Part shown: in pieces, positions 160 through 17,610 of the stretch | Numbering within the stretch: the stretch's first letter is position 1 | How the letters are laid out: every line of letters begins with the position of its first letter | Translations under genes and position numbers: made by a program | The notes under the pieces: generated by a model | Database searches by the model: none | Told to the model about the DNA's origin: nothing | The model's input: only the letters and a program-made list of their open reading frames with translations | Source of the DNA: Peptococcaceae bacterium | GTDB lineage: Bacteria > Bacillota > Desulfitobacteriia > Desulfitobacteriales > Syntrophobotulaceae | Length of the DNA stretch: 35,991 nucleotides | NCBI GenBank assembly: GCA_012839895.1 | Contig: DUML01000102.1 | Coordinates: 1-35,991 of the forward strand | Direction of reading: 5' to 3'

Positions 160-1170
160 TTACTTATTTGCTTTTTTATTAGCTAAAGCGTAAGCAACAT
201 CGATACATATATCTTCTTGACCTTCTGTACACTGACGTCTGCCAATTTCTTTGATTATATCTCTTGGGTCGACGCCAAATTTCGCACCTGCCCTTTGTGC
301 GAACAGTAGAAAGCTGGAATAGCATCCTGCGTAGCCTAGCATAATTCGATCATTATCAACTTCCATGGGCCTCGGCATGAGTGGTCTTAAGTATTCTTCA
401 GCTATATCCATTGTTTTATATAAGTCTATACCACAGTCAATATTCATTCTGTCTAATACTGCTGCAAATATTTCCGTCGGACAGTTACCTGCCCCGGCAC
501 CAAATCCTTTTAGACAACAGTCTATATATTCTGCTCCAGCTTCTACAGCTGCCTTTGAATTAGCTACAGCTAACTGTAAATTATTATGACCATGGAATCC
601 TATCGGAACATCTACGGCTTTTTTCATAGCAGCTATTCTTTCGTAGGTTTGTTCAGGAAGTTGATATCCTCCGCCATCAAGTAAATAAATTACTTCTGCA
701 CCATAAGATTCAGCCATTTGAGCATATCGAACGGTATCTTTTACAGGTATAATTCCGGCACAAGGCAAAACAGATATGGGGATAAAACCCATTTGTTTTG
801 CCATTTTGATATGCTGTTCAGCTATGTCAACTTCAGTTATCTGGGTACAAAGACGCGCGTATTTGGCACCAAATTCTTTGGCTAAGTTTAATTCGTGTCT
901 AGTGCCTACTCCAGGGAGAATGATTATCGAAATACTGCTATTCTTTATAACCGGAGCAACAGCTTCCATATATTCCCTGTCTGATGCTGCTGCAAATCCA
1001 TATTGCAGAGCATTACCACCCAATCCATTGCCATGCCCAAATTCAATGGCTTCTACACCAGTTTTATCTATTTGTTCCGCAAGAATTGCCATCTGTTCAG
1101 GTGTGAATTGGTGGCTTTTGGCATGACTTCCATCCCTCAGAGTTAAATCGAATATTTTGATTTTAGCCAT
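160..1170 (-). CDS. mhpE: 4-hydroxy-2-oxovalerate aldolase-type enzyme (DmpG/MhpE family, divergent)
   Basis: This 336-residue protein belongs to the HMGL-like TIM-barrel aldolases. The family splits 4-hydroxy-2-oxoacids into pyruvate and an aldehyde with a divalent metal. Visible signatures are the N-terminal LRDGSHAKSH (metal and catalytic Arg12/Asp13), GHGNGLGG near 46, metal ligands in GFHGHNN (His193, His195), GAGAGN near 225, and the C-terminal helical region with LGYAGCYSSFL that contacts the dehydrogenase partner in DmpG-DmpF. Two places differ from the DmpG pattern I recall: the MMSHM-like segment is LPCAG (135-139), and the DSxGAM segment is DGGGYQ (165-170). Substrate range may therefore differ. 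A GGAGG site precedes the ATG. It lies 13 nt after the dehydrogenase gene, so the two are co-transcribed and probably form the usual channelling complex. Confidence 0.85.
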   Translation of the reverse strand: MAKIKIFDLTLRDGSHAKSHQFTPEQMAILAEQIDKTGVEAIEFGHGNGLGGNALQYGFAAASDREYMEAVAPVIKNSSISIIILPGVGTRHELNLAKEFGAKYARLCTQITEVDIAEQHIKMAKQMGFIPISVLPCAGIIPVKDTVRYAQMAESYGAEVIYLLDGGGYQLPEQTYERIAAMKKAVDVPIGFHGHNNLQLAVANSKAAVEAGAEYIDCCLKGFGAGAGNCPTEIFAAVLDRMNIDCGIDLYKTMDIAEEYLRPLMPRPMEVDNDRIMLGYAGCYSSFLLFAQRAGAKFGVDPRDIIKEIGRRQCTEGQEDICIDVAYALANKKANK

Positions 1171-1183
1171 TACTTTATTCCTC

Positions 1184-2068
1184 CTATTTGAATAATTTGT
1201 ACTTGGCGATTTTCTCTCCGACAGCTAATGCTGCACAAGTTTCAATGTCCAAGTTTCCACTATAATTGGGTAAATAATCTCCAGAACCCTCAACTTCAAT
1301 CATTACGGTAACTTTATTGCCATCAAATATTGGTGGTACCTTTAATCTATACCCTGGAACAAAAGATTGCACTTCTTTTACCATATTATCTACTGAATCA
1401 ACAATTTTCTTCTCAATTTCTTCATTAACATTACTTATTAAAGCATAGATAGTATTATTCATTAACATTGGAGGATCTGCAGGATTAAGTAGAATAATCG
1501 CCTTTCCGCGTTCTGCTTTACCAATATCAACTATACCTTTGGCCGTTGTTAGGGTAAATTCATCAATGTTTTGCCTAGTACCTGGTCCTGCGCTTTTACT
1601 CGCTATTGTCGCTACAATTTCAGCATAAGGAGTTTTTACTATCCTGCTTATAGCATATACTATCGGAATAGTTGCTTGACCTCCGCATGTTATCAAGTTA
1701 ACATTCATAGCATTAATATGTTCATCTAAGTTAACCACAGGTATCACATAAGGGCCTACTGCTGCAGGTGTCAAGTCGATTGCGATGATACCAGCATCTT
1801 TCAACAATGGTGCATGAACCATATGAGCATGAGCAGTTGTTGCATCAAAAACAATATCTATGTCTCTTCTTTCCAAGATAGCTTTAATGCCTTCGGCGCT
1901 AGTCTCAATGCCTTCTTCTTGGGCTAACCGAAGCCCTTCTGATTCACGGATAATTCCGGTAACTAGCTTTAAATCTAAATATTTAGCCCTTCTTTTAATT
2001 TTATACATTAAGTCTGTGCCAATATTTCCTGGGCCGATAATTGCAGCATTAAACTTATCTTTACTCAT
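1184..2068 (-). CDS. mhpF: Acetaldehyde dehydrogenase, acetylating (DmpF/MhpF family)
   Basis: The 294-residue length is normal for DmpF/MhpF. These enzymes oxidise acetaldehyde (or propanal) with NAD+ and CoA to the acyl-CoA. An N-terminal Rossmann motif ([11 protein letters not shown], about 10-20) binds NAD. The catalytic cysteine is Cys128 in [11 protein letters not shown], and the SAGPGTRxNIDEF segment follows at about 160. The gene is directly upstream of the aldolase, the standard pairing that passes toxic aldehyde between active sites. No oxygenase or hydratase of a meta-cleavage pathway is adjacent. A GGAG lies 12 nt before the ATG, a rather long spacing. The gene begins about 120 bp beyond a MITE-like insertion, so its promoter may lie in that gap or transcripts may come through from the TRAP genes. 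Confidence 0.9.
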
Positions 2069-2182
2069 AATAAGTCATCACTCCTTCATTTTTTTGATTA
2101 AGCTTATTAAGAAGTCTATTTATGTGCTTTCCTGAAGTTCTAACTGGGTATATATTAAGATACTTGTTTTGTTATAAAGGTT

Positions 2183-2556
2183 ATAGAATGAATATACCGG
2201 TTCAACAGAGCCACCGTTCCGGAGTACAGCGAGCCACCCGTCCGGAAAAATTGAGCCATAGTTCCGGACATATGAGCCAAGCTTAATCGTATAGGGAAGC
2301 TCCTCCTTTGAGACCCAAAATGAGACTTGATATGGGGGCGATGAATGCTACCCTAGATATAAGGGATGGGCTTACCCTAGAGGAATACATCATCTGAGCC
2401 ACAGCCCTCGACCCATTGAAGCATCCGGCGTAGAGTCCGATGTCAAGTCTACCCGAGAGTAGACTACCCCTTTCGTAAGTGTGGTTTCGTAAAACGGAAC
2501 GGCGGCTCTCACTCGCCGGAACAGTGGCTCAAAGTAGGCCGGATTAATCATAGAAT
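2183..2556. mobile_element. Non-autonomous IS21-like element (MITE) with multiple end repeats
   Basis: The left end carries a ~16-bp repeat, GAGCCACCGTTCCGGA, at 2208-2223, with variants at 2231-2246 and 2253-2268 and a partial copy at 2274, spaced 21-23 bp. The right end has the same repeat inverted at 2516-2530 and 2495-2508, spaced 22 bp. Multiple short repeats inside both ends are typical of the IS21 family. A 7-bp direct repeat, ATAGAAT, flanks the element at 2183-2189 and 2550-2556 and could be the target duplication. No istA or istB gene is present. A 36-codon open stretch (2287-2394, ending LTLEEYII) may be a coding remnant, and a 7-bp hairpin lies at 2446-2465. The element separates dctM from the dehydrogenase gene. 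Confidence 0.65.
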
Positions 2557-2584
2557 ATTTACACTTATTATTTTTGTTTTGGTT

Positions 2585-3901
2585 TTACATTCTATTGGGT
2601 AAGAACATAATGATGTCTGGGAAAATGCAGCAAAGAATTATACATATGAATTGCATTAACATAAAAGGAAGAGCAGCCATATACAGTTTTCCTATGGGAA
2701 TGTGGGGAACAAATCCTTTCATATAGAAGACGGCATAGGCTACTGGCGGTGAGAGTACTGATACCTGGATCATTAGTGCAAAAATGATTCCGAACCATAT
2801 TGGATCAAAGCCTAAGGAATAGATAATAGGAGTAAACAAGGGGACGCCTATTAATAAAACTCCATAAGAATCTAGCAGCATACCCATTATAAGTAGCATA
2901 AAGAGTATGGTTCCTAAAATAACCCACTTACCATTACCTATACTTACTACAAAATCAGCAATAACCTTATCTCCGCCCAAACCAATGAAGATATTGGTAA
3001 ACATCGAAGCAGTCACAATAATCATCATAATCATCGCTGTGGTTTTCATTGTAGAATAACAAGATTCTTTAAACATTTCCCAGTTGAAATTCTTATATAT
3101 AATAGCAATAATTATTGCTCCAACACAGCCAAGGGCAGAAGCTTCATTAGGTGTAGCAGCGCCTAGCAAAATAGAACCTAAAACTAGTAAAATCAAGCCC
3201 AAAGTGGGAGTAACAGAAAAGCAAACCATAGAGATTTTCTGCGAAGTAGAATATTTTGCACTCTCTTCCTTTGATATTGGTGGACCAAAAGAGGGATTGA
3301 TATAAGATCGGACAATTACATAAATTCCATAAATGGCAGCAAGGCAAATACCAGCTCCCATCCCCCCAGCAAATAATTTTGCGATAGATATATTAGCAAG
3401 GGACCCATAAATGACCAGTATTACGCTTGGAGGGATAAGAGTCCCCAAACTGCCTGCCGCCATTACCGTACCACAAGCCATTTTTTCCTCGTATTTATGT
3501 TTGAGCATTGTAGGTAGAGCTAACATAGCCATTATGGAAATAGAGGCGCCAATAATACCGGTAGCAGCACCCATTAAAGCAGAGATCACTACAGTAGAAA
3601 GAGCCAAGCCGCCTCTAAGTCTGCCAAAAACTACATACAAGGAGTCAAATAACTTATCTGCTGATCCTGACTTTTCCAGGAGAGCTCCCATAAAAATAAA
3701 TAACGGGATACAGACATAGGAACTTGTCGTAACGACCTTAAAAACAGATCGCATAAAAATATTTAAAATACTTAAATCTCCCCAAAAAGCAACGCCGAAA
3801 ATGATTCCTAAGCCGCCTAAAATCCAGGAGAGCGGGTGTCCCAAGAATAGCACGACAAGAAATACAACCATCATTATTAAAACAATTGTTGTTGCGCTCA
3901 T
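2585..3901 (-). CDS. dctM: TRAP transporter large permease, DctM subunit
   Basis: This 438-residue, very hydrophobic protein has roughly 12 membrane segments and fits the DctM subunit of tripartite ATP-independent periplasmic transporters, which carries the sodium-coupled translocation pathway. Recognisable features are the N-terminal FLGHPLSWILGGLG region, GAATGIIGASISIMAM near 110-125, the GSLGTLIPPSVILVIYG loop (150-166), and SPPVAYAVFYMKG near 385, all characteristic of DctM. The start has a good AGGAGA site and follows the dctQ stop by 2 nt, so translation is probably coupled. The next genes downstream are the aldehyde dehydrogenase and aldolase, across the MITE-like insertion. The substrate cannot be read from the sequence; a 2-oxo, hydroxy or dicarboxylic acid is likely for the family. 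Confidence 0.93.
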   Translation of the reverse strand: MSATTIVLIMMVVFLVVLFLGHPLSWILGGLGIIFGVAFWGDLSILNIFMRSVFKVVTTSSYVCIPLFIFMGALLEKSGSADKLFDSLYVVFGRLRGGLALSTVVISALMGAATGIIGASISIMAMLALPTMLKHKYEEKMACGTVMAAGSLGTLIPPSVILVIYGSLANISIAKLFAGGMGAGICLAAIYGIYVIVRSYINPSFGPPISKEESAKYSTSQKISMVCFSVTPTLGLILLVLGSILLGAATPNEASALGCVGAIIIAIIYKNFNWEMFKESCYSTMKTTAMIMMIIVTASMFTNIFIGLGGDKVIADFVVSIGNGKWVILGTILFMLLIMGMLLDSYGVLLIGVPLFTPIIYSLGFDPIWFGIIFALMIQVSVLSPPVAYAVFYMKGFVPHIPIGKLYMAALPFMLMQFICIILCCIFPDIIMFLPNRM

Positions 3902-3903
3902 AG

Positions 3904-4413
3904 TTAAATCTCCTCTCCTTTAGTAAATTGAACAAATACCCTGAGCCATTTTGCGATTCCCTGGAGTAACAACAATAAAAAAGAAAATGCAATTATGACT
4001 TTTAGTGGATATAGGGGAGCAGCCCATTGGGTATAAGTTGTTTCTCTTATACTTAGCGAGTAGAGCGCATTGTCTGTGCATTTCCAAACCATAACAGCCG
4101 CAAAGGGGAAGAATATTAGCGGAAATAAAATTAATTCTAAAATTTGTTGTTTTTTAGGTGAAAATTTTGAAAAAACCATATCAGTCCGAACGTGTCCATC
4201 ATAGGTCATTACCCAAGCAGCTCCTGTAATAAAATGGGCGCCGTAAAGTAGCATTGCCACTTCCCACGACCAAACTGTCGGACTATTAAAAACGTAACGT
4301 AGTAGAGTCTCGCCTGCTTGAAGGATAACTATAGGTATTATTAAGAAGCTAAAGAATTTGCCTACAGAGATGCTTATCTTATCCATGGTTTTAACGTACT
4401 TTCTTATCACCAA
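3904..4413 (-). CDS. dctQ: TRAP transporter small permease, DctQ subunit
   Basis: The 169-residue protein has four predicted membrane segments (about 15-35, 50-70, 90-115, 130-155), as expected for the DctQ small permease. The segment GAAWVMTYDGHVRTDMVF around 60-80 is the family signature (variants of the xDGHVRxD loop). It bridges the binding protein and the DctM channel. It is read from a TTG (or the GTG one codon later) with a GGGAGG site 7 nt upstream. The gene lies between dctP, from which a long inverted repeat separates it, and dctM, which follows after 2 nt. Confidence 0.92.
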   Translation of the reverse strand: MVIRKYVKTMDKISISVGKFFSFLIIPIVILQAGETLLRYVFNSPTVWSWEVAMLLYGAHFITGAAWVMTYDGHVRTDMVFSKFSPKKQQILELILFPLIFFPFAAVMVWKCTDNALYSLSIRETTYTQWAAPLYPLKVIIAFSFLLLLLQGIAKWLRVFVQFTKGEEI

Positions 4414-4443
4414 CTACTAACCTCCCCGTTAATTTTAGAAAGC

Positions 4444-4526
4444 ATTGCTACTATTCAGCATGCAAATGATGGAATTTTACGGATAATATACGCTTGTGAA
4501 TCGTAAAGATGCTGAATAGTAGCAAT
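4444..4526 (-). repeat. 18-bp perfect inverted repeat between dctP and dctQ
   Basis: The arms 4444-4461 and 4509-4526 are perfect 18-bp reverse complements (ATTGCTACTATTCAGCAT and its complement) around a 47-nt loop. The loop holds a second small inverted pair, TTTACG (4476-4481) and CGTAAA (4502-4507), so a two-tier RNA hairpin can form in the dctP-dctQ spacer. Such structures often protect the 3' end of the abundant binding-protein message and reduce read-through into permease genes. No U-tract follows on the minus strand, so this is more likely an mRNA-stabilising element than a strong terminator. Confidence 0.7.
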
Positions 4527-4568
4527 TATGGTTTATTGCTATTTAATTACTTATTTAACTACTATTTA

Positions 4569-5729
4569 CTATTCATCAGCATCTTTATGATATTTAGGAA
4601 TCTCAAAGCCAGCAGCTTCACTAGCTGTTAGTCCTGTACTCCAATGAGATGTTAACTCTTTATATGGATAATATTTTTTATAAAATTCATAAATTGTATC
4701 GTAAGCTTTAGCTGTCAGGCTATCTTGTCCTTGCTTTTCTCTTTCAGCAGCTTCGATCTCAACCATTTTCTTCCTCATATCAGCAAACTGCTCAGGAGCC
4801 AATCTCCTAAATGCTACCTTCCCTGATTCGCTTAATTCTTTCAAATCTTCAGCACTCGTCAACTCGGCTTGAGCAAAGACATTCATCATTTTGGCATCCA
4901 GTACAGATTTAATAATAATTTTTAAATCTTCTGGCAGTTTGTTCCAGGCATCCTTGTTAACAACAACTGTTTCGACAAATGAACAATTCCAAAAATCTGG
5001 ATAAATGCCATATGGCGCTATGTCAGTTATACCTAAGTCATTGTTATAGGACAGATAGCAGTTTTCAAGCATATCGACGGCTCCCTGGGCCATAGCAGTG
5101 TAAATTTCTTCAATGGGCAGAGTGATAGCGGAAATACCCATGGCGACCGCAATATCAGGAGCTGAAGTCCGGAATTTCTTGCCCTTCATTTCTGCGATAC
5201 TCTTAAAGTCATATCTCGAAGCTAATGTATCAGGCGGCCAAATTCTATAAGAAATGAATTCGAGATTTAGCTTATCAAAAGCTTCCTGCATTAATTCTTT
5301 ACCGCCGCCCTGTTCCAAGAAGATCATTCTATCCAAAGGCCCCATAGACATATTGCCATCTGCGATAGGAATAAATGCGTATTCAATTCCTTTTACATAT
5401 GACGGCCAGCTCGAGTGCATTTCGAAGACTCCTTCCCCACAGGCTTGGAAGGCTTCCATGCTACTCGCAAAGGAACCACTTGGATAAAGTTCTATCTTCA
5501 TTCTTCCGTTAGTTGCTTTATAAATATCATCACATACTACTTCGAAAGCTTTATAATCTAACTGTTCAGGGCCATGTACTACTTGAAATTTCCAAGTAAA
5601 TTCTGGTGCAGCTGCCATTCCGCTACTACCAGGTGAAGTTTGGGCTGGAGCACTACTGTTACCGCAGCCAGCTAGAATTATGGTTAAACTTAGAATAATA
5701 GTAATAATTAGAACAAATTTTCGATGCAT
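4569..5729 (-). CDS. dctP: TRAP transporter solute-binding lipoprotein, DctP family
   Basis: The 386-residue protein starts with a lipoprotein signal (hydrophobic residues 5-19, lipobox LAGC, Cys22) and a Ser/Pro/Ala-rich linker. The mature part is a DctP-type binding protein: GRMKIELYPSG near 75, MKGKKFRTSAPD near 183 with the Arg that anchors a substrate carboxylate, and IYTAMAQGAVDMLEN near 208. It captures an organic acid outside the membrane and hands it to DctQM. The start has an AAGGGAG site 8-9 nt upstream. The gene heads the minus-strand cluster. Its neighbours suggest a substrate cleaved to pyruvate and an aldehyde, but that is inference. Confidence 0.92.
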   Translation of the reverse strand: MHRKFVLIITIILSLTIILAGCGNSSAPAQTSPGSSGMAAAPEFTWKFQVVHGPEQLDYKAFEVVCDDIYKATNGRMKIELYPSGSFASSMEAFQACGEGVFEMHSSWPSYVKGIEYAFIPIADGNMSMGPLDRMIFLEQGGGKELMQEAFDKLNLEFISYRIWPPDTLASRYDFKSIAEMKGKKFRTSAPDIAVAMGISAITLPIEEIYTAMAQGAVDMLENCYLSYNNDLGITDIAPYGIYPDFWNCSFVETVVVNKDAWNKLPEDLKIIIKSVLDAKMMNVFAQAELTSAEDLKELSESGKVAFRRLAPEQFADMRKKMVEIEAAEREKQGQDSLTAKAYDTIYEFYKKYYPYKELTSHWSTGLTASEAAGFEIPKYHKDADE

Positions 5730-6413
5730 AAAACCAACTCCCTTTAAATTTTAATTTGAACATAAGGTTCCACAGTCCCTAGGTATCGGTAGTTTAGATT
5801 CAGTGAACTTAAGGATTCAATTGTTTTAAGTTAGAATGCTACTTATCTACGGTTATTGCCGTCCTCCTTTCTTTAGTAAAATAAATCCTCCTCCCTTCAA
5901 TGTTAGTTATCTGAAATTTCCCTATTTTCTAACAAGTTATCAAATAAGTTGCTATAGTACAATTAGCTTTCAATTTTAAAAAAAGAAAAGAAAATAAAAT
6001 AATGAACAAAATATATGTTCAAGTTAACGAGAAGGGTGAAGATATTCAAAAAAACAATTAAAAAAACTGATGAAAAAATAAAACACTCAAGTGTTTTTTG
6101 CTTGAGTATTTATTGTTGCTAGCTGTGTTAGATAAGTAGGAGATACGATATAGCCATTGATATAAGCTTCATAGATAGTTAGAACATACTATCAACGACT
6201 AACACCCAATAGTTGTGAGTCTTGCCAAATTGAAAAATGTACTTCAGACAATATGTTAATCAATTATCCCAATGGGGTATAACCTGAAAATTCAGCGCTA
6301 TCCTACCGCACTGCCAGAAGTACTTCTTTTTTTTATACATTTTTTTGGCCCAATTTTTCAATAATAAGGATGGTATGGTTTATTTCTGTAAATACAAAAG
6401 GGGGTTACACATA
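5730..6413. other. 684-bp divergent intergenic region between dctP and the PFOR gene
   Basis: No supported gene is present. The region must hold promoters for the two divergent units, but I cannot identify a convincing sigma-A or sigma-54 promoter pair. Visible structures are a TGAACA-N7-TGTTCA dyad (6003-6021), a possible operator, and a 7-bp inverted pair at 5806-5812/5826-5832 in the dctP leader. At 6081-6107 there are competing small hairpins (AAACAC/GTGTTT followed by T's, and ACTCAAG/CTTGAGT). A 19-codon ATG frame (6002-6061) ends just before them, but its ribosome site is weak and it is not called as a gene. Confidence 0.5.
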
Positions 6414-9400
6414 ATGCCGCAAAAAATGGCGACTATGGACGGCAACGAAGCAGCTGCGCGGGCTTCTTACGCCTTAACAGAAGTGGCAACAATTTTTCCT
6501 ATAACACCTTCCTCGCCTATGGCCGAAGGAGTAGATGAATGGTCGGCTCACGGGAAGACCAATATCTTCGGTCAACCGGTAAAAGTAGTGGAAATGGAGT
6601 CGGAAGCCGGGGCGGCCGGAGCAGTACACGGCTCGCTGGCTGCGGGAGCGCTGACCACTACATATACAGCCTCCCAAGGGCTTCTTTTAATGATTCCTAA
6701 CATGTATAAGATAGCCGGGGAACTTTTGCCCAGTGTTTTTCATGTCAGTGCCAGGGCTTTAGCTACCCATGCCCTGTCAATTTTCGGTGACCATCAAGAC
6801 GTAATGGCTTGCCGGCAGACAGGTTTTGCCCTGCTGGCTTCCACCAGTGTTCAGGAATGCATGGATTTAGGATACGTGGCTCATTTGGCAACACTTAAGG
6901 CGCGGGTTCCTTTTCTCCATTTCTTTGACGGGTTCCGTACCTCTCACGAGGTCCAAAAAATCGAAGTGATTGATCAGGAGACTATTAAGCAAATAGTGGA
7001 TTATGATGCTATCCAGCGTTTCCGGGATAATTCTTTACATCCGGACCACCCTATTGTCCGCGGGTCTACCCAGAATCCGGACGTTTATTTTCAATACCGG
7101 GAAGTTGCCAATCCTTTCTATGCCAAGGTTCCTGATATTGTCGAAGAAACCATGCGTGAGCTGGAAAAAGTAACCGGCCGGGTCTATCATCCCTTTAATT
7201 ATTACGGAGCACCGGACGCCGAATATATTATTGTTGCTATGGGCTCCGTCTGCGATACTATCGAAGAAACAATTGATTATTTAACCAAGAAAGGAGAAAA
7301 AGTAGGGCTTATCATAGTCCATCTTTATCGTCCGTTCTCAGCCGAATATTTCTTCAAGGTCCTGCCCAAGACCGTGCAAAGGATTGCTGTCTTAGACCGG
7401 ACCAAAGAGCCCGGCTCTCCCGGAGAACCCCTTTATCTTGATGTTGTGGAAGTATTCAGCACTATGCAAAATAAACCTTTGATTGTAGGTGGGCGCTATG
7501 GCCTTGGTTCTAAAGATACGACGCCTTCGCAGATTCTGGCGGTTTATAAAAATCTTAAGGCAGCCAATCCCAAGAACCATTTTACAATTGGTATTGTCGA
7601 TGATGTTTCCTATACTTCTTTGCCTGAAGAGGAAATCATCGATACCACTCCCGAAGGAACCATAAACTGCAAATTCTGGGGTTTGGGTTCAGACGGAACA
7701 GTCGGCGCCAATAAATCCGCAGTAAAAATCATCGGGGATAATACCGATCTCTATGTTCAGGCTTACTTTTCCTATGACAGCAAAAAGTCGGGCGGCACAA
7801 CCGTCTCCCATTTAAGGTTCGGCAAGAAACCCATTAAGTCTCGTTATTTGGTGATTAATGCCGATTACATTGCTTGCCACAACAAATCTTTCCTTTACCA
7901 GTATAATTTAGTGCAGGGTTTGAGGAAGAACGGGACCTTTGTTTTAAATTGCCCCTGGAAACCGGAAGAGTTGGACGAGCACCTGCCTGCTTATCTCAAA
8001 CGGTACCTGGCGGAAAATAACATTAATTTCTATATTATTGATGCGGTGGATATTGCCCAGAAAATAGGCTTAGGTGCCAGAATTAATATGATTATGCAGG
8101 CTGTTTTCTTTAAATTGTCTAACGTCATCCCGCTGGAAGAGGCAGTTCGATATCTCAAAAATTCTATTGAAAAAACCTATGGCCGTAAGGGTTCCAAAAT
8201 TGTGGAAATGAATATAGCGGCTGTTGATGAAGGCATTGCCAAAGTTGTTAAAGTCGAAATTCCGGCGGAGTGGGCTAAGGCCGAGGAAAATCCTAAGACT
8301 GAAGCAAAAGAATTGCCGGATTTTATTCAGAAAATTCACCAGCCCATTACCAGTTATGAAGGGGATGAACTGCCCACCAGCACTTTTCTCAATATGGAAG
8401 ACGGCCGTGTCCCCTTAGGCACTACCGCCTATGAAAAACGCGGCATTGCTGTTTTTTTGCCCGAATGGCAAATTGACAAGTGTATTCAGTGCTATCAGTG
8501 CTCTTACATTTGTCCCCATGCCACCATCAGGCCGTTCCTCTTAACGGACGAGGAAAAAGCTAAAGCACCGGATACTTTTAAAACGAAACAACCTGTGGGT
8601 AAAGCCTTGCAAGGACTGCATTTCCGCATTCAGGTAGCGCCTTTGGACTGCACGGGTTGTATGAACTGCGCGGACATTTGCCCGGCTCCCGGCAAAGCTT
8701 TGGTTATGAAGCCCGCTGCCGAGCAGATCGAAAGAGAGTCGGAAAACTGGGAGTTCGCCATGACGGTAACACCCAAAGAGGATTTGCTGGATCGTTATAC
8801 CATCAAAGGAAGCCAGCTTATGCGGCCTTTGCTGGAATTCAACGGCGCTTGCCCCGGTTGTGGCGAGACTCCCTATGTCAAACTTTTGACACAGCTCTTC
8901 GGCGATCGGCTAATGATTGCTAATGCCACCGGTTGTTCTTCCATCTGGGGCGGCAGCTATCCGTCCATCCCTTATACAACTAATGCCGAAGGCAAAGGGC
9001 CCGCTTGGGCTAATTCCCTCTTTGAAAACAATGCCGAATACGGCTACGGAATGTATCTGGGTGTGAAACAAATCCGGGAAAAAATTGCCCAACTGATGGA
9101 AGAGGCCCTGAATACGGAGCTGCCAGGGCAAGTCGCAAGCGCTTTCCGGGAGTGGCTGGACTCTTTTGATGACGGTGATCGTTCCAGATTTGCTTCGGAT
9201 AAAGTCCTCAAAGTCCTAGAGGCTCACCCCTTGCCGGATAATCCGCTAATCGCTGAAATCCTGAAAAGAAAAGATTATCTGGTGAAACGCTCTATCTGGG
9301 CGGTTGGTGGCGACGGCTGGGCTTATGACATTGGTTACAACGGAGTTGACCACGTCCTGGCCAGCGGGGATGACATTAATCTCCTGGTTTTGGATACGGA

Positions 9401-9947
9401 AGTCTACTCCAATACCGGCGGACAATCTTCCAAGTCTACCCAGACTGCAGCCATTGCCAAATTTGCCGCAGCCGGCAAAAAGATCCGCAAGAAAGACTTA
9501 GGGATGATGGCTATGTCCTATGGCTATGTTTATGTTGCGCAAATTGCCATGGGCGCCAATATGCAGCAGGCGATTAAAGCTATTACGGAAGCAGAAAGGT
9601 ATAAGGGCCCTTCCCTGGTTATTGCCTATTCAACCTGCGTCAATCATGGTATAAAAAACGGCATGGGTATGAGCCTCGCTCAGCAGAAAAAAGCAGTAGA
9701 AGCAGGGTATTGGCATCTCTACAGGTATAATCCTGAGCTAAAAGAGCAGGGCAAGAACCCCTTCATTCTTGATTCCAAAGAGCCCAAAGGCAGTTTCCGG
9801 GAGTTTATCGAAAGCGAGATCCGCTACTCTTCACTAATGAATGTCTTCCCGGATATTGCCGAAGAAATGTTTACCGTTGCTGAAGAACATGCCGCCAACC
9901 GCTATGAAACTTACCGGCGCATGGCTGAGAATGAGTGTTTTAGATAA
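6414..9947 (+). CDS. nifJ: Pyruvate:ferredoxin (flavodoxin) oxidoreductase, single-chain
   Basis: This 1177-residue homodimer-type PFOR oxidatively decarboxylates pyruvate with CoA to acetyl-CoA, CO2 and reduced ferredoxin. Domains in order are the alpha-like pyrimidine-binding N-terminus (DGNEAAARASYALTEVA, with FPITPSSPMAE), the CoA-associated domain II, the gamma domain (FWGLGSDGTVGANKSAVKI near 420), and a 2[4Fe-4S] ferredoxin domain with Cys690/693/696/700 and Cys746/749/752/756. The TPP domain follows, with proximal-cluster ligands in GACPGCG (Cys813, Cys816) and the GDGWAYDIGYNGVDH and NTGGQSSKST motifs. A TTG frame opens at 6345, but the ATG at 6414 has an AAAAGGGGG site and matches the usual N-terminus. 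It is divergent from the TRAP-aldolase cluster, whose product would be pyruvate. Confidence 0.96.
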   Translation: MPQKMATMDGNEAAARASYALTEVATIFPITPSSPMAEGVDEWSAHGKTNIFGQPVKVVEMESEAGAAGAVHGSLAAGALTTTYTASQGLLLMIPNMYKIAGELLPSVFHVSARALATHALSIFGDHQDVMACRQTGFALLASTSVQECMDLGYVAHLATLKARVPFLHFFDGFRTSHEVQKIEVIDQETIKQIVDYDAIQRFRDNSLHPDHPIVRGSTQNPDVYFQYREVANPFYAKVPDIVEETMRELEKVTGRVYHPFNYYGAPDAEYIIVAMGSVCDTIEETIDYLTKKGEKVGLIIVHLYRPFSAEYFFKVLPKTVQRIAVLDRTKEPGSPGEPLYLDVVEVFSTMQNKPLIVGGRYGLGSKDTTPSQILAVYKNLKAANPKNHFTIGIVDDVSYTSLPEEEIIDTTPEGTINCKFWGLGSDGTVGANKSAVKIIGDNTDLYVQAYFSYDSKKSGGTTVSHLRFGKKPIKSRYLVINADYIACHNKSFLYQYNLVQGLRKNGTFVLNCPWKPEELDEHLPAYLKRYLAENNINFYIIDAVDIAQKIGLGARINMIMQAVFFKLSNVIPLEEAVRYLKNSIEKTYGRKGSKIVEMNIAAVDEGIAKVVKVEIPAEWAKAEENPKTEAKELPDFIQKIHQPITSYEGDELPTSTFLNMEDGRVPLGTTAYEKRGIAVFLPEWQIDKCIQCYQCSYICPHATIRPFLLTDEEKAKAPDTFKTKQPVGKALQGLHFRIQVAPLDCTGCMNCADICPAPGKALVMKPAAEQIERESENWEFAMTVTPKEDLLDRYTIKGSQLMRPLLEFNGACPGCGETPYVKLLTQLFGDRLMIANATGCSSIWGGSYPSIPYTTNAEGKGPAWANSLFENNAEYGYGMYLGVKQIREKIAQLMEEALNTELPGQVASAFREWLDSFDDGDRSRFASDKVLKVLEAHPLPDNPLIAEILKRKDYLVKRSIWAVGGDGWAYDIGYNGVDHVLASGDDINLLVLDTEVYSNTGGQSSKSTQTAAIAKFAAAGKKIRKKDLGMMAMSYGYVYVAQIAMGANMQQAIKAITEAERYKGPSLVIAYSTCVNHGIKNGMGMSLAQQKKAVEAGYWHLYRYNPELKEQGKNPFILDSKEPKGSFREFIESEIRYSSLMNVFPDIAEEMFTVAEEHAANRYETYRRMAENECFR

Positions 9948-14814: not shown

Positions 14815-17610
14815 TTAAGATAAGATTATTTTTTTATGTTTTACCTTGAGTTTTTTGCTAAAGAGAAGAAATACCAAGAAGAGAAGCATCCCCACACTAA
14901 TCCCCGTAATAACCATACCGACGGTTAAGCCTTTAGGGGCGAATTTCAGGAGTATTTCATGCTCGCCGGGGGGAACTTCCACCCCGAGGAAAGCCCGGCC
15001 GATTTTTCTGGTAGGAGCCTTCTGGCCGTCGATAAAGGCTTGCCAGCCAGGGTCATATAAAATAGAAGTAAATAGCAAGTCCTTGCCTTCACCGGTAACA
15101 GTAACCTTTCCCTGGACTGAAGTCCCCTCCACTCGGATGTTTTCCAGGGGGTTGTTACGGAGAGGAAGAATGGCCCTAGCGAGTGCATCTTCGCATAAAT
15201 AGTAGAAATACTTCTTAGCTAAGGTAAATCCTTGATTGCGGAAGGTAAGGCGGACGTGCAGTTCGGCTCCTTGGCGCTGATAGCCCAGGTCAACAATTCT
15301 TTTATTGTAGAGGGGAAGGTAGCCCTTGATTTCCTGATCATTAACATAAATTTTGACCTCGTTGGTAATGGTTTGGAAACAGGCATAGGCCTGGCCTTCT
15401 TCAGGGCATACCAAGGTATATTCTACAGAAGCTTCCTGGGAGGTATTAACCCGGCCGATAACTTCTTTGCCCTGTTCCAGGCTCAAAAAAGCATTGTCTA
15501 ATTTGGTATCCTTGAGAGTGAGAGGCCGGAAATAAGCCTGAAATTTGTTTTCTTCGCTGTAGCCATGAGCCAAATTGAGCAGGGTGTTCTGCAGGGTGAA
15601 AGGGTTATCGTCTTTGGTCGGGTCATATATAAGCAGGTCGCGGTGGGTGAGAAAGGCCAGCGGTAAAGCGTAGTTATTTCGGTAAGCCTTAAATTCGCCT
15701 TTATCCATTATTTCTTGGTAACCCAGCCCTTTCTCTCCTGCTGAAAGTACATATTTTATACCCAGCAAGGACTCTGTTACAGCGGTGGAGCCGGCAAAAT
15801 TAATTGATTTATAGCTGGCGGTAGTTAAAAAACCAAGCTGCCTTAAAGCCCAATGGGCTTCGGTATTGGCGGCGGAACTAAAATGAGCTACCCCCGGATA
15901 GTATAAATTCATCGGGTCATTGAAAGTTCGTCCGCCAATTCTCTCCATCCGGTAAAAGCTTGGGTCTTTGGTTTGCAGTTCCGGAATAAAAGGCTCAAGT
16001 TTGCTTAAAGTCCGTTCATAGTCCTGTTTGGTTACATATTGAAATTCCCCGTTCATCTTCCCGAGCAAATACCAGGTGTTAAGGGAAGTTTCCACCATAA
16101 TAAGGGCACTCAAACAAAGCAAAAAAAGCTTTCTTCTCGGCTGGGAAACAGTGAGCCATCCTGCCAGAAGCAGGGAGTAAATACCATAGAACAAAATGCT
16201 AATCATCAGCATTTTAGCAGAAAGGAGCGGGCTGTTAATTTTTTGTATAATTACGACCAGAGCCAGCCAGAGAAAGCAGCTCCGGTACAGCCGGGGGAGA
16301 TCCGCTTTGTTAAGGTGTTGTAAACTTCTTAAAGCCAGGAAAAGAAGCAAAAAGGAGAAAACAAAGGAATAGCGGTGCGGGAACCAGTCCGGCCGGTCAA
16401 AGGCGTGCCAGATGACATCCAAATTGGAAAAGTCAAAGCTAATAATAAGGAAAACCAAAAGGGCGGAATAAATTAATTTCTCCCCCCTGGGGATATTCTT
16501 TTGGCAATAGTAGAGGGGAAGCAACAGAAGGGGCAATATCCCGCAGTAGATATTGGGTGTCCCCTTATTCTGCAGGGTATCGTAGCTTCCCGGCTGAGTT
16601 TTGGTGAGAAGGTCCAAGAGGGGGAAATTTATTTGCCAATCGAAGGCCGTACTGAGGTTGGGCCCTCCTTGCCCATTTTTTAAAGCCAAGAAGGTGGGGA
16701 TTAATAATACTGCGGCACAGCCGGCGGCGAGAACGGCGGAAAAACTAAAGAGGAAAAATTTACGGGCGAAAAGCCTGAGAGATTGCCTTGTAAAGGGCTG
16801 CCGGGAGAAAAAAGCCGCCAGGAAGTAAAGAAAGGAGAAAAGGCCAACCATATAAGATATGTAATAATTGGCTAAGAAAATAACGATTAAGCTGAGTAAA
16901 AACAAAAGATATTTATTATCACGGAGTATTTTCTCCACGCCCAAGAGAACCAAGGGTAAGAGAATAACACCGTCCAGCCACATGAGGTTAAACGAATAAG
17001 ACACCGAATAAGCCATTAAAGCATACAAAACGGAGAAGATTAAAAGGAGTAGTTTAGATTCGGAGTTCCATTTGGAATCAAGGTGCGAAACAGGGTTCGG
17101 TTTAGGCTCATCGGCAGCCGGAGCTTGGGCGGAAGGAGATGGACTGGCTGCCAGACTATGCCCGAAAGTATTATTAGCGTAGATAGCAAAAGTTAAGCCG
17201 GCCGCGGCAATTTTCAGAAGAGTTATTAGGAATAATGCTTCGGTCAGGTTTTCTTTGGGAAAGAGGACAATTAAGAGCGAAAAAGGGCTGGCCAGGTAGT
17301 AGGCGAATAGCCCCAAAAAATTTAGCCCTAATCCGGCCTGCCAAGAATAAAGGAGGCTTTGGCCTTGGGTCAAAATCTCATAATAAGTGGCGAAGAAATC
17401 AACATATTGCCCGCTTAAGTCGCAGATCAGCACTGTCTTGTCTCCCAAGGGATACATGCCGTGCTTCAAGTAGACAAGTCCCAGGATAAAGAAAGGGAGG
17501 AAAAAGGCTAAAAAATAGAGGGCAAAAGAAGAATTTGCTATACTATTTAATTTTTGACTGGTTCGTTTTAAGGTTATTATCTTTAAATACTTTCCATCCA
17601 TGGCAATCAT
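14815..17610 (-). CDS. YfhO-family membrane glycosyltransferase
   Basis: The 931-residue protein begins with about 13 membrane helices (to roughly residue 500). A large extracytoplasmic region follows, and a final helix (about 895-920) ends in a basic tail. The N-terminal loop with GDKTVLICDLSGQYVDFFATY, WQAGLGLNFLG and the FPHRYSFVFSFLLL segment near 410 are typical of YfhO proteins, GT-C-type transferases that use polyprenyl-phosphate sugars. In Bacillus, YfhO works with the CsbB glycosyltransferase to decorate lipoteichoic acid. Here the same partners lie upstream: a CsbB/GtrB-like transferase and a GtrA-like protein. A Pro/Ala/Ser-rich cytoplasmic or outer loop near 155-175 is a lineage-specific insert. 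The ribosome site is weak, so the exact start (ATG 17610 or ATG 17601) is uncertain. Confidence 0.85.
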   Translation of the reverse strand: MIAMDGKYLKIITLKRTSQKLNSIANSSFALYFLAFFLPFFILGLVYLKHGMYPLGDKTVLICDLSGQYVDFFATYYEILTQGQSLLYSWQAGLGLNFLGLFAYYLASPFSLLIVLFPKENLTEALFLITLLKIAAAGLTFAIYANNTFGHSLAASPSPSAQAPAADEPKPNPVSHLDSKWNSESKLLLLIFSVLYALMAYSVSYSFNLMWLDGVILLPLVLLGVEKILRDNKYLLFLLSLIVIFLANYYISYMVGLFSFLYFLAAFFSRQPFTRQSLRLFARKFFLFSFSAVLAAGCAAVLLIPTFLALKNGQGGPNLSTAFDWQINFPLLDLLTKTQPGSYDTLQNKGTPNIYCGILPLLLLPLYYCQKNIPRGEKLIYSALLVFLIISFDFSNLDVIWHAFDRPDWFPHRYSFVFSFLLLFLALRSLQHLNKADLPRLYRSCFLWLALVVIIQKINSPLLSAKMLMISILFYGIYSLLLAGWLTVSQPRRKLFLLCLSALIMVETSLNTWYLLGKMNGEFQYVTKQDYERTLSKLEPFIPELQTKDPSFYRMERIGGRTFNDPMNLYYPGVAHFSSAANTEAHWALRQLGFLTTASYKSINFAGSTAVTESLLGIKYVLSAGEKGLGYQEIMDKGEFKAYRNNYALPLAFLTHRDLLIYDPTKDDNPFTLQNTLLNLAHGYSEENKFQAYFRPLTLKDTKLDNAFLSLEQGKEVIGRVNTSQEASVEYTLVCPEEGQAYACFQTITNEVKIYVNDQEIKGYLPLYNKRIVDLGYQRQGAELHVRLTFRNQGFTLAKKYFYYLCEDALARAILPLRNNPLENIRVEGTSVQGKVTVTGEGKDLLFTSILYDPGWQAFIDGQKAPTRKIGRAFLGVEVPPGEHEILLKFAPKGLTVGMVITGISVGMLLFLVFLLFSKKLKVKHKKIILS

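Follow-up and report, generated by a model that had tools for sequence, protein, structure and literature searches.

What does an anaerobe break down with an organic-acid carrier encoded next to a 4-hydroxy-2-oxoacid aldolase and an acylating aldehyde dehydrogenase? The question is raised by a 35,991-nucleotide stretch of DNA from a Peptococcaceae bacterium (hereafter the window), which is the complete contig DUML01000102.1 (C110) of a 2.84 Mb draft genome (GCA_012839895.1; 98.7% complete). It encodes a tripartite ATP-independent periplasmic (TRAP) carrier (dctPQM) followed by mhpF and mhpE. A sequence-only reading had called these five open reading frames with the right coordinates, strands and assignments; all are intact, and family models match the uptake system and the enzyme pair that it described in an anaerobe. 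The locus is real, but its key enzyme, a glycyl radical enzyme (GRE) encoded on another contig, had been missed. We put at about 0.6 the probability that the window carries half of an operon for anaerobic catabolism, split by an insertion sequence (IS), in which the GRE would replace a hydratase and yield the substrate of MhpE and MhpF.

Position 1 of the window is a contig end that lies within an IS21-like element (IS-A), 35 bp beyond mhpE; the contig breaks inside the terminal 'L' end of the element (1-124; ...CCCCAACATTTATTTTAGAACC). This 124-bp stretch has six more copies in the genome, every one at a contig end, and the opposite (R) end of IS-A was found on five contig ends (C58, C51, C97, C29 and C28). 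C58 starts with an R end, the counterpart of the L end in the window, and the two flanks share an 8-bp target-site duplication (125-132; CTTAAATT, or AATTTAAG in the operon direction) that is repeated exactly at the C58 start. Comparison of the flanking bases of seven L ends with those of five R ends of IS-A (35 pairings) gave four one-to-one pairs that matched over exactly 8 bp: C110-C58 (AATTTAAG), C64-C29 (TTACTTAT), C26-C51 (ATACTTTT) and C24-C97 (CTTTTTTC). Only ~0.002 chance matches are expected among the 35 pairings, a figure estimated by hand from the AT-rich flank composition and not by simulation. It follows that IS-A duplicates 8 bp of target DNA on insertion and that, before this copy entered, C58 continued the window. 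On the evidence of its flanks, the pairing shows that IS-A inserted into a stretch in which mhpE and the GRE gene were already joined, and we infer an ancestral operon order of dctPQM-mhpF-mhpE-GRE-activase that is now split after mhpE. Matching of target duplications in this way offers a means of rejoining IS-broken operons in draft genomes.

C58 (3.8 kb; locus L044) encodes an intact GRE of 803 aa (L044:203-2614), the only one in the genome, and an activase of 300 aa (L044:2632-3534). The best model for the GRE is the general PFL2-3 family, and the activase matches TIGR02494 with 343 bits. The features of a GRE eliminase are present, namely the CXE motif GCTE (GCAE in Desulfosporosinus), the glycyl loop RVAGF and a radical SAM activase; the CXE motif marks GRE eliminases (PMC7077986). 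Because this motif is kept, with a single Cys in GCTE instead of Cys-Cys, the enzyme is not a pyruvate formate-lyase, and the corresponding equivalog model scores 160 bits against 994. Equivalogs for HYPD, CutC, HpsG/HpfG and the indoleacetate and hydroxyphenylacetate decarboxylases were likewise rejected, all of them falling far under their cut-offs.

The closest solved relatives are glycerol dehydratase (696-752 bits) and 1,2-propanediol dehydratase (677-712 bits). The B12-independent enzymes 1R8W and 5I2A share the CXE motif, the glycyl loop and the activase with the GRE, which differs from them in a Tyr339 to Phe change and in its pairing with a class II aldolase. It also differs at Asp447 (glycerol dehydratase numbering), a residue of the substrate pocket (structure 1R9D). 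The aligned relatives 1R8W, 5I2A, 9RCO, PflD and the G059 GRE all keep this residue, and it is Thr in the C58 enzyme and Pro in that of Desulfosporosinus; an assignment as glycerol or propanediol dehydratase was rejected on this ground. Judged by its residues, the GRE is an eliminase with an altered pocket and belongs to no characterised GRE family. A search at E <= 1e-240 in 398 genomes sampled from the phylum matched the window's own genome only. On its right, C58 finishes in one end of another IS21-like element (L044:3590-3768), which places the GRE and activase genes between two IS copies; among the contigs of this second IS, the 8-bp duplication rule gave no continuation beyond C58, the best match being only 7/8 (C66).

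The same genes, mhpF-mhpE-GRE-activase, occur uninterrupted in Desulfosporosinus lacus DSM 15449 and Desulfosporosinus sp. I2, with a divergent CdaR-like regulator ahead of mhpF and a major facilitator superfamily (MFS) carrier after the activase, in the place of the TRAP carrier. Identity to the Desulfosporosinus proteins is 84% for MhpE, 77% for MhpF, 59% for the GRE and 46% for the activase. These two species were the only ones in which a peptide-pattern scan, which may miss some, found close (84%) relatives of MhpE. A search for the close MhpE clade across the order (74 genomes) and one for the close GRE clade across the class (83 genomes) each returned three genomes only, identical in the two cases. 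To judge from this co-occurrence, the predicted eliminase and its activase are a conserved partner of this mhpFE clade.

Ordinary mhpFE loci have a different content. An MhpD/DmpE-type hydratase is encoded in 28 of 31 other mhpFE loci (the remaining three are short or truncated records), none of which holds a GRE or this TRAP carrier. The three GRE-linked loci encode no hydratase. As the sequence-only reading had noted, neither a ring-cleavage gene nor a hydratase was seen adjoining the operon, and a search of the whole genome for 2-oxopent-4-enoate hydratase (TIGR03220) was also empty; the lower pathway of aerobic meta-cleavage was rejected for lack of this enzyme. Hydratase-linked clusters of related anaerobes (L030-L041 and L050-L052) have the same mhpF-mhpE pair together with the hydratase and often QRPTase-like, MoCF and FeS/BFD proteins, but they lack both the GRE and the TRAP carrier. 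Adjoining such clusters with QRPTase-like and MoCF-domain proteins is a ~480-aa protein (L030:7046-8491, with homologs in L032-L037, L039 and L050-L052) that is paired with a Fer4/BFD protein; its members are 71-88% identical and match no Pfam or NCBIfam model.

The aldolase itself has been remodelled in the GRE-linked loci. MhpE (160-1170, reverse strand) is a class II 4-hydroxy-2-oxoacid (pyruvate) aldolase that matches TIGR03217 (417 bits; cut-off 286), PF00682 and PF07836, the DmpG communication domain. Its residues R12, D13, H16, H193, H195 and Y284 align with R17, D18, H21, H200, H202 and Y291 of DmpG (1NVM), which we take to be the catalytic and metal residues. Its partner, the acylating aldehyde dehydrogenase MhpF (1184-2068, reverse strand), matches TIGR03215 (433 bits; cut-off 282). 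In phylogenetic trees the three GRE-linked loci form one clade for MhpE (support 100/100) and one for MhpF (100/99). The stem of the MhpE clade is long, at 1.1 changes per site, and 16 clade-specific changes fall at near-invariant columns, most of them shortening side chains; MhpF has just 3 clade-specific changes. Many of the MhpE changes lie at the C-termini of barrel strands (DmpG positions 53, 88, 89, 113, 115, 139, 141, 142, 171 and 172), where, given the barrel fold, they would line the acceptor pocket, and the pocket-side positions are unlike those of all 30 other aligned members. In BphI, Leu-87 adjoins the C4 methyl (PMC3962088); the expected equivalent by our own mapping, which is offset by one, is DmpG position 88, and it has changed from Leu to Ile. 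Since these strand-end and pocket-side positions are remodelled, the MhpE clade likely uses an aldehyde larger or more polar than acetaldehyde. The known pairs DmpG-DmpF, MhpE-MhpF and BphI-BphJ belong to the same two families and share the gene pair, the communication domain, the metal ligands and the catalytic residues; the long-stem clade with its 16 changes, the GRE link and the missing hydratase set the present pair apart.

The carrier is complete, with its three subunits adjacent and co-directional on the reverse strand: the solute-binding lipoprotein DctP (4569-5729; PF03480, 98 bits, over the cut-off), the small permease DctQ (3904-4413; PF04290, 67 bits, over the cut-off) and the large permease DctM (2585-3901; TIGR00786, 289 bits against a cut-off of 268; PF06808). 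The best solved relative of DctP is 4pe3 (E 1e-34), whose title names no ligand, and among its closest solved relatives are binders of keto acids and of lactate, going by their deposited names. Conservation of the order dctPQM-mhpFE was not borne out: TRAP genes are absent from all 31 other mhpFE loci and from both Desulfosporosinus loci. A TRAP carrier here and an MFS carrier in Desulfosporosinus suggest an organic-anion substrate that is imported by whichever carrier is available. Related TRAP operons (L072:7058-10114 and L073:7305-10428; DctP 44-46% and DctM 54-58% identical) adjoin genes for MtaA/CmuA-like, corrinoid and MeTr-like methyltransferase proteins, which suggests that the carrier type of those two loci serves methylated or methoxylated substrates. 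Naming the substrate from these relatives was rejected, as their methyltransferase neighbours do not name the substrate here.

In the pathway that we propose, the TRAP carrier would import an organic acid and the GRE would strip from it a leaving group, most likely water, filling the position that 2-hydroxypentadienoate hydratase has in ordinary mhpFE pathways. The product would become a 4-hydroxy-2-oxoacid, directly or via one further step, which MhpE would split into pyruvate and an aldehyde; MhpF would oxidise the aldehyde to an acyl-CoA, and pyruvate:ferredoxin oxidoreductase (PFOR) could use the pyruvate. The sequences show the gene identities, the IS junction through its target duplication, the co-occurrence and synteny with the GRE, the missing hydratase and the eliminase motif; we infer the order of the reactions, the nature of the substrate and the use of pyruvate by PFOR. 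It had been suggested that a 4-hydroxy-2-oxoacid or a near precursor is imported; as the GRE and its activase are a conserved partner of the mhpFE clade, a precursor converted by the GRE is the more likely of the two. In a GRE eliminase the carbonyl arises at the carbon that carried the hydroxyl, and therefore a 2-oxo-4-hydroxy product would derive from a 2-hydroxy-3-X-4-hydroxy acid; the simplest guess, that X is OH, is an improbable one. More broadly, and tentatively, the locus may encode a new GRE eliminase that forms a 2-oxo-4-hydroxy acid (for example from a 2,3,4-trihydroxy acid) and passes it to an adapted MhpE-MhpF pair, a radical entry with two known lineages.

Several observations weigh against this proposal. 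The C110-C58 link rests on the 8-bp duplication, with no read spanning the IS junction. Because the two Desulfosporosinus loci are near-identical, the three genomes count as two independent lineages only. Between these lineages the GRE (59%) and activase (46%) diverge far more than MhpE (84%), so the GRE substrates may differ. Moreover, most characterised GRE eliminases yield aldehydes and not 2-oxoacids (PMC7077986), and for this reason the GRE product might pass to MhpF instead of MhpE. The GRE would then give a small aldehyde for conversion to acyl-CoA by MhpF alone, as in other GRE/aldehyde dehydrogenase pairs, leaving MhpE for complex stability or a side branch. Glycerol and 1,2-propanediol dehydratases as closest solved relatives, and an MhpF little altered in the clade, agree with such a scheme. 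It is nevertheless unlikely: of all genes in the module mhpE is the best conserved, and the 84% identity of its product together with the clade-specific remodelling argues that it is under selection of its own, and the glycerol dehydratase Asp447 is replaced.

In the sequence-only reading, dctPQM imports a 4-hydroxy-2-oxoacid that MhpE and MhpF split alone, which would make the GRE an unrelated neighbour. The co-directional genes on one strand, the lack of a predicted terminator-like site between dctM and mhpF, and the several solved DctP relatives that by deposited name bind 2-oxo or 2-hydroxy acids all accord with it. We consider it quite improbable, given that the GRE and activase genes follow mhpE in both lineages, that the clades co-occur exactly and that the TRAP genes do not accompany mhpFE in other loci. 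An accidental neighbourhood, in which the TRAP operon, mhpFE and the GRE have separate roles and were brought together by transposition in a decaying, IS-rich locus, would fit the two IS-derived insertions in the cluster and the use of this TRAP type elsewhere for other substrates, as argued by the corrinoid methyltransferase genes beside the DctP relatives, but it is highly improbable in view of intact reading frames throughout, the recurrence of the mhpFE-GRE linkage in Desulfosporosinus and the matching duplication, by which the IS entered a mhpE-GRE stretch already joined.

The proposed GRE-fed operon resembles the isethionate sulfite-lyase (IseG/IslA) loci of sulfite- and sulfate-reducing relatives, which likewise combine GRE, activase and a TRAP or MFS carrier; the GRE occurs with TRAP in one strain and with MFS in another (PMC6453916). 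The GRE described here is distant from those enzymes (395-405 bits, compared with 696-752 for glycerol dehydratase), and its locus has mhpE in addition. In the literature, a single paper combined 'glycyl radical enzyme' with '4-hydroxy-2-oxovalerate aldolase' and was off topic, and the search for the combination with TRAP returned none. To our knowledge, every GRE eliminase characterised so far has led to an anaerobic pathway, as for choline, hydroxyproline, isethionate and sulfopropanediol. If our proposal is true, a GRE clade with a constant aldolase-dehydrogenase partner would add a further one, and MhpE-MhpF would gain a role outside aromatic catabolism. The locus suggests an undescribed anaerobic route for organic-acid breakdown.

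Other features of the window are peripheral to this pathway. The intergenic region of dctP and dctQ holds an 18-bp perfect inverted repeat (4444-4526, reverse strand) with a predicted RNA hairpin of -27.6 kcal/mol (z -6.8); it is likely an mRNA stabiliser or attenuator, and as a stabiliser it could possibly set how much binding protein is made relative to permease. Between dctM and mhpF lies a non-coding, IS-derived insert of 360 bp (2190-2549) that resembles a miniature inverted-repeat transposable element. It has several GAGCCACCGTTCCGG-type terminal repeats, inverted as well as direct repeats and a single copy in the genome, and is bordered by the 7-bp repeat ATAGAAT (2183-2189 and 2550-2556). 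PFOR is encoded divergently (6345-9947, forward strand; probable start 6414; TIGR02176, 1985 bits). Its supposed special tie to mhpFE was not borne out, as no PFOR adjoins mhpFE in the two Desulfosporosinus loci, and it is probably a housekeeping gene outside the module. No Rfam match was found across the window. Further along, at 14815-17610, the window encodes a YfhO-family membrane protein of 931 aa.

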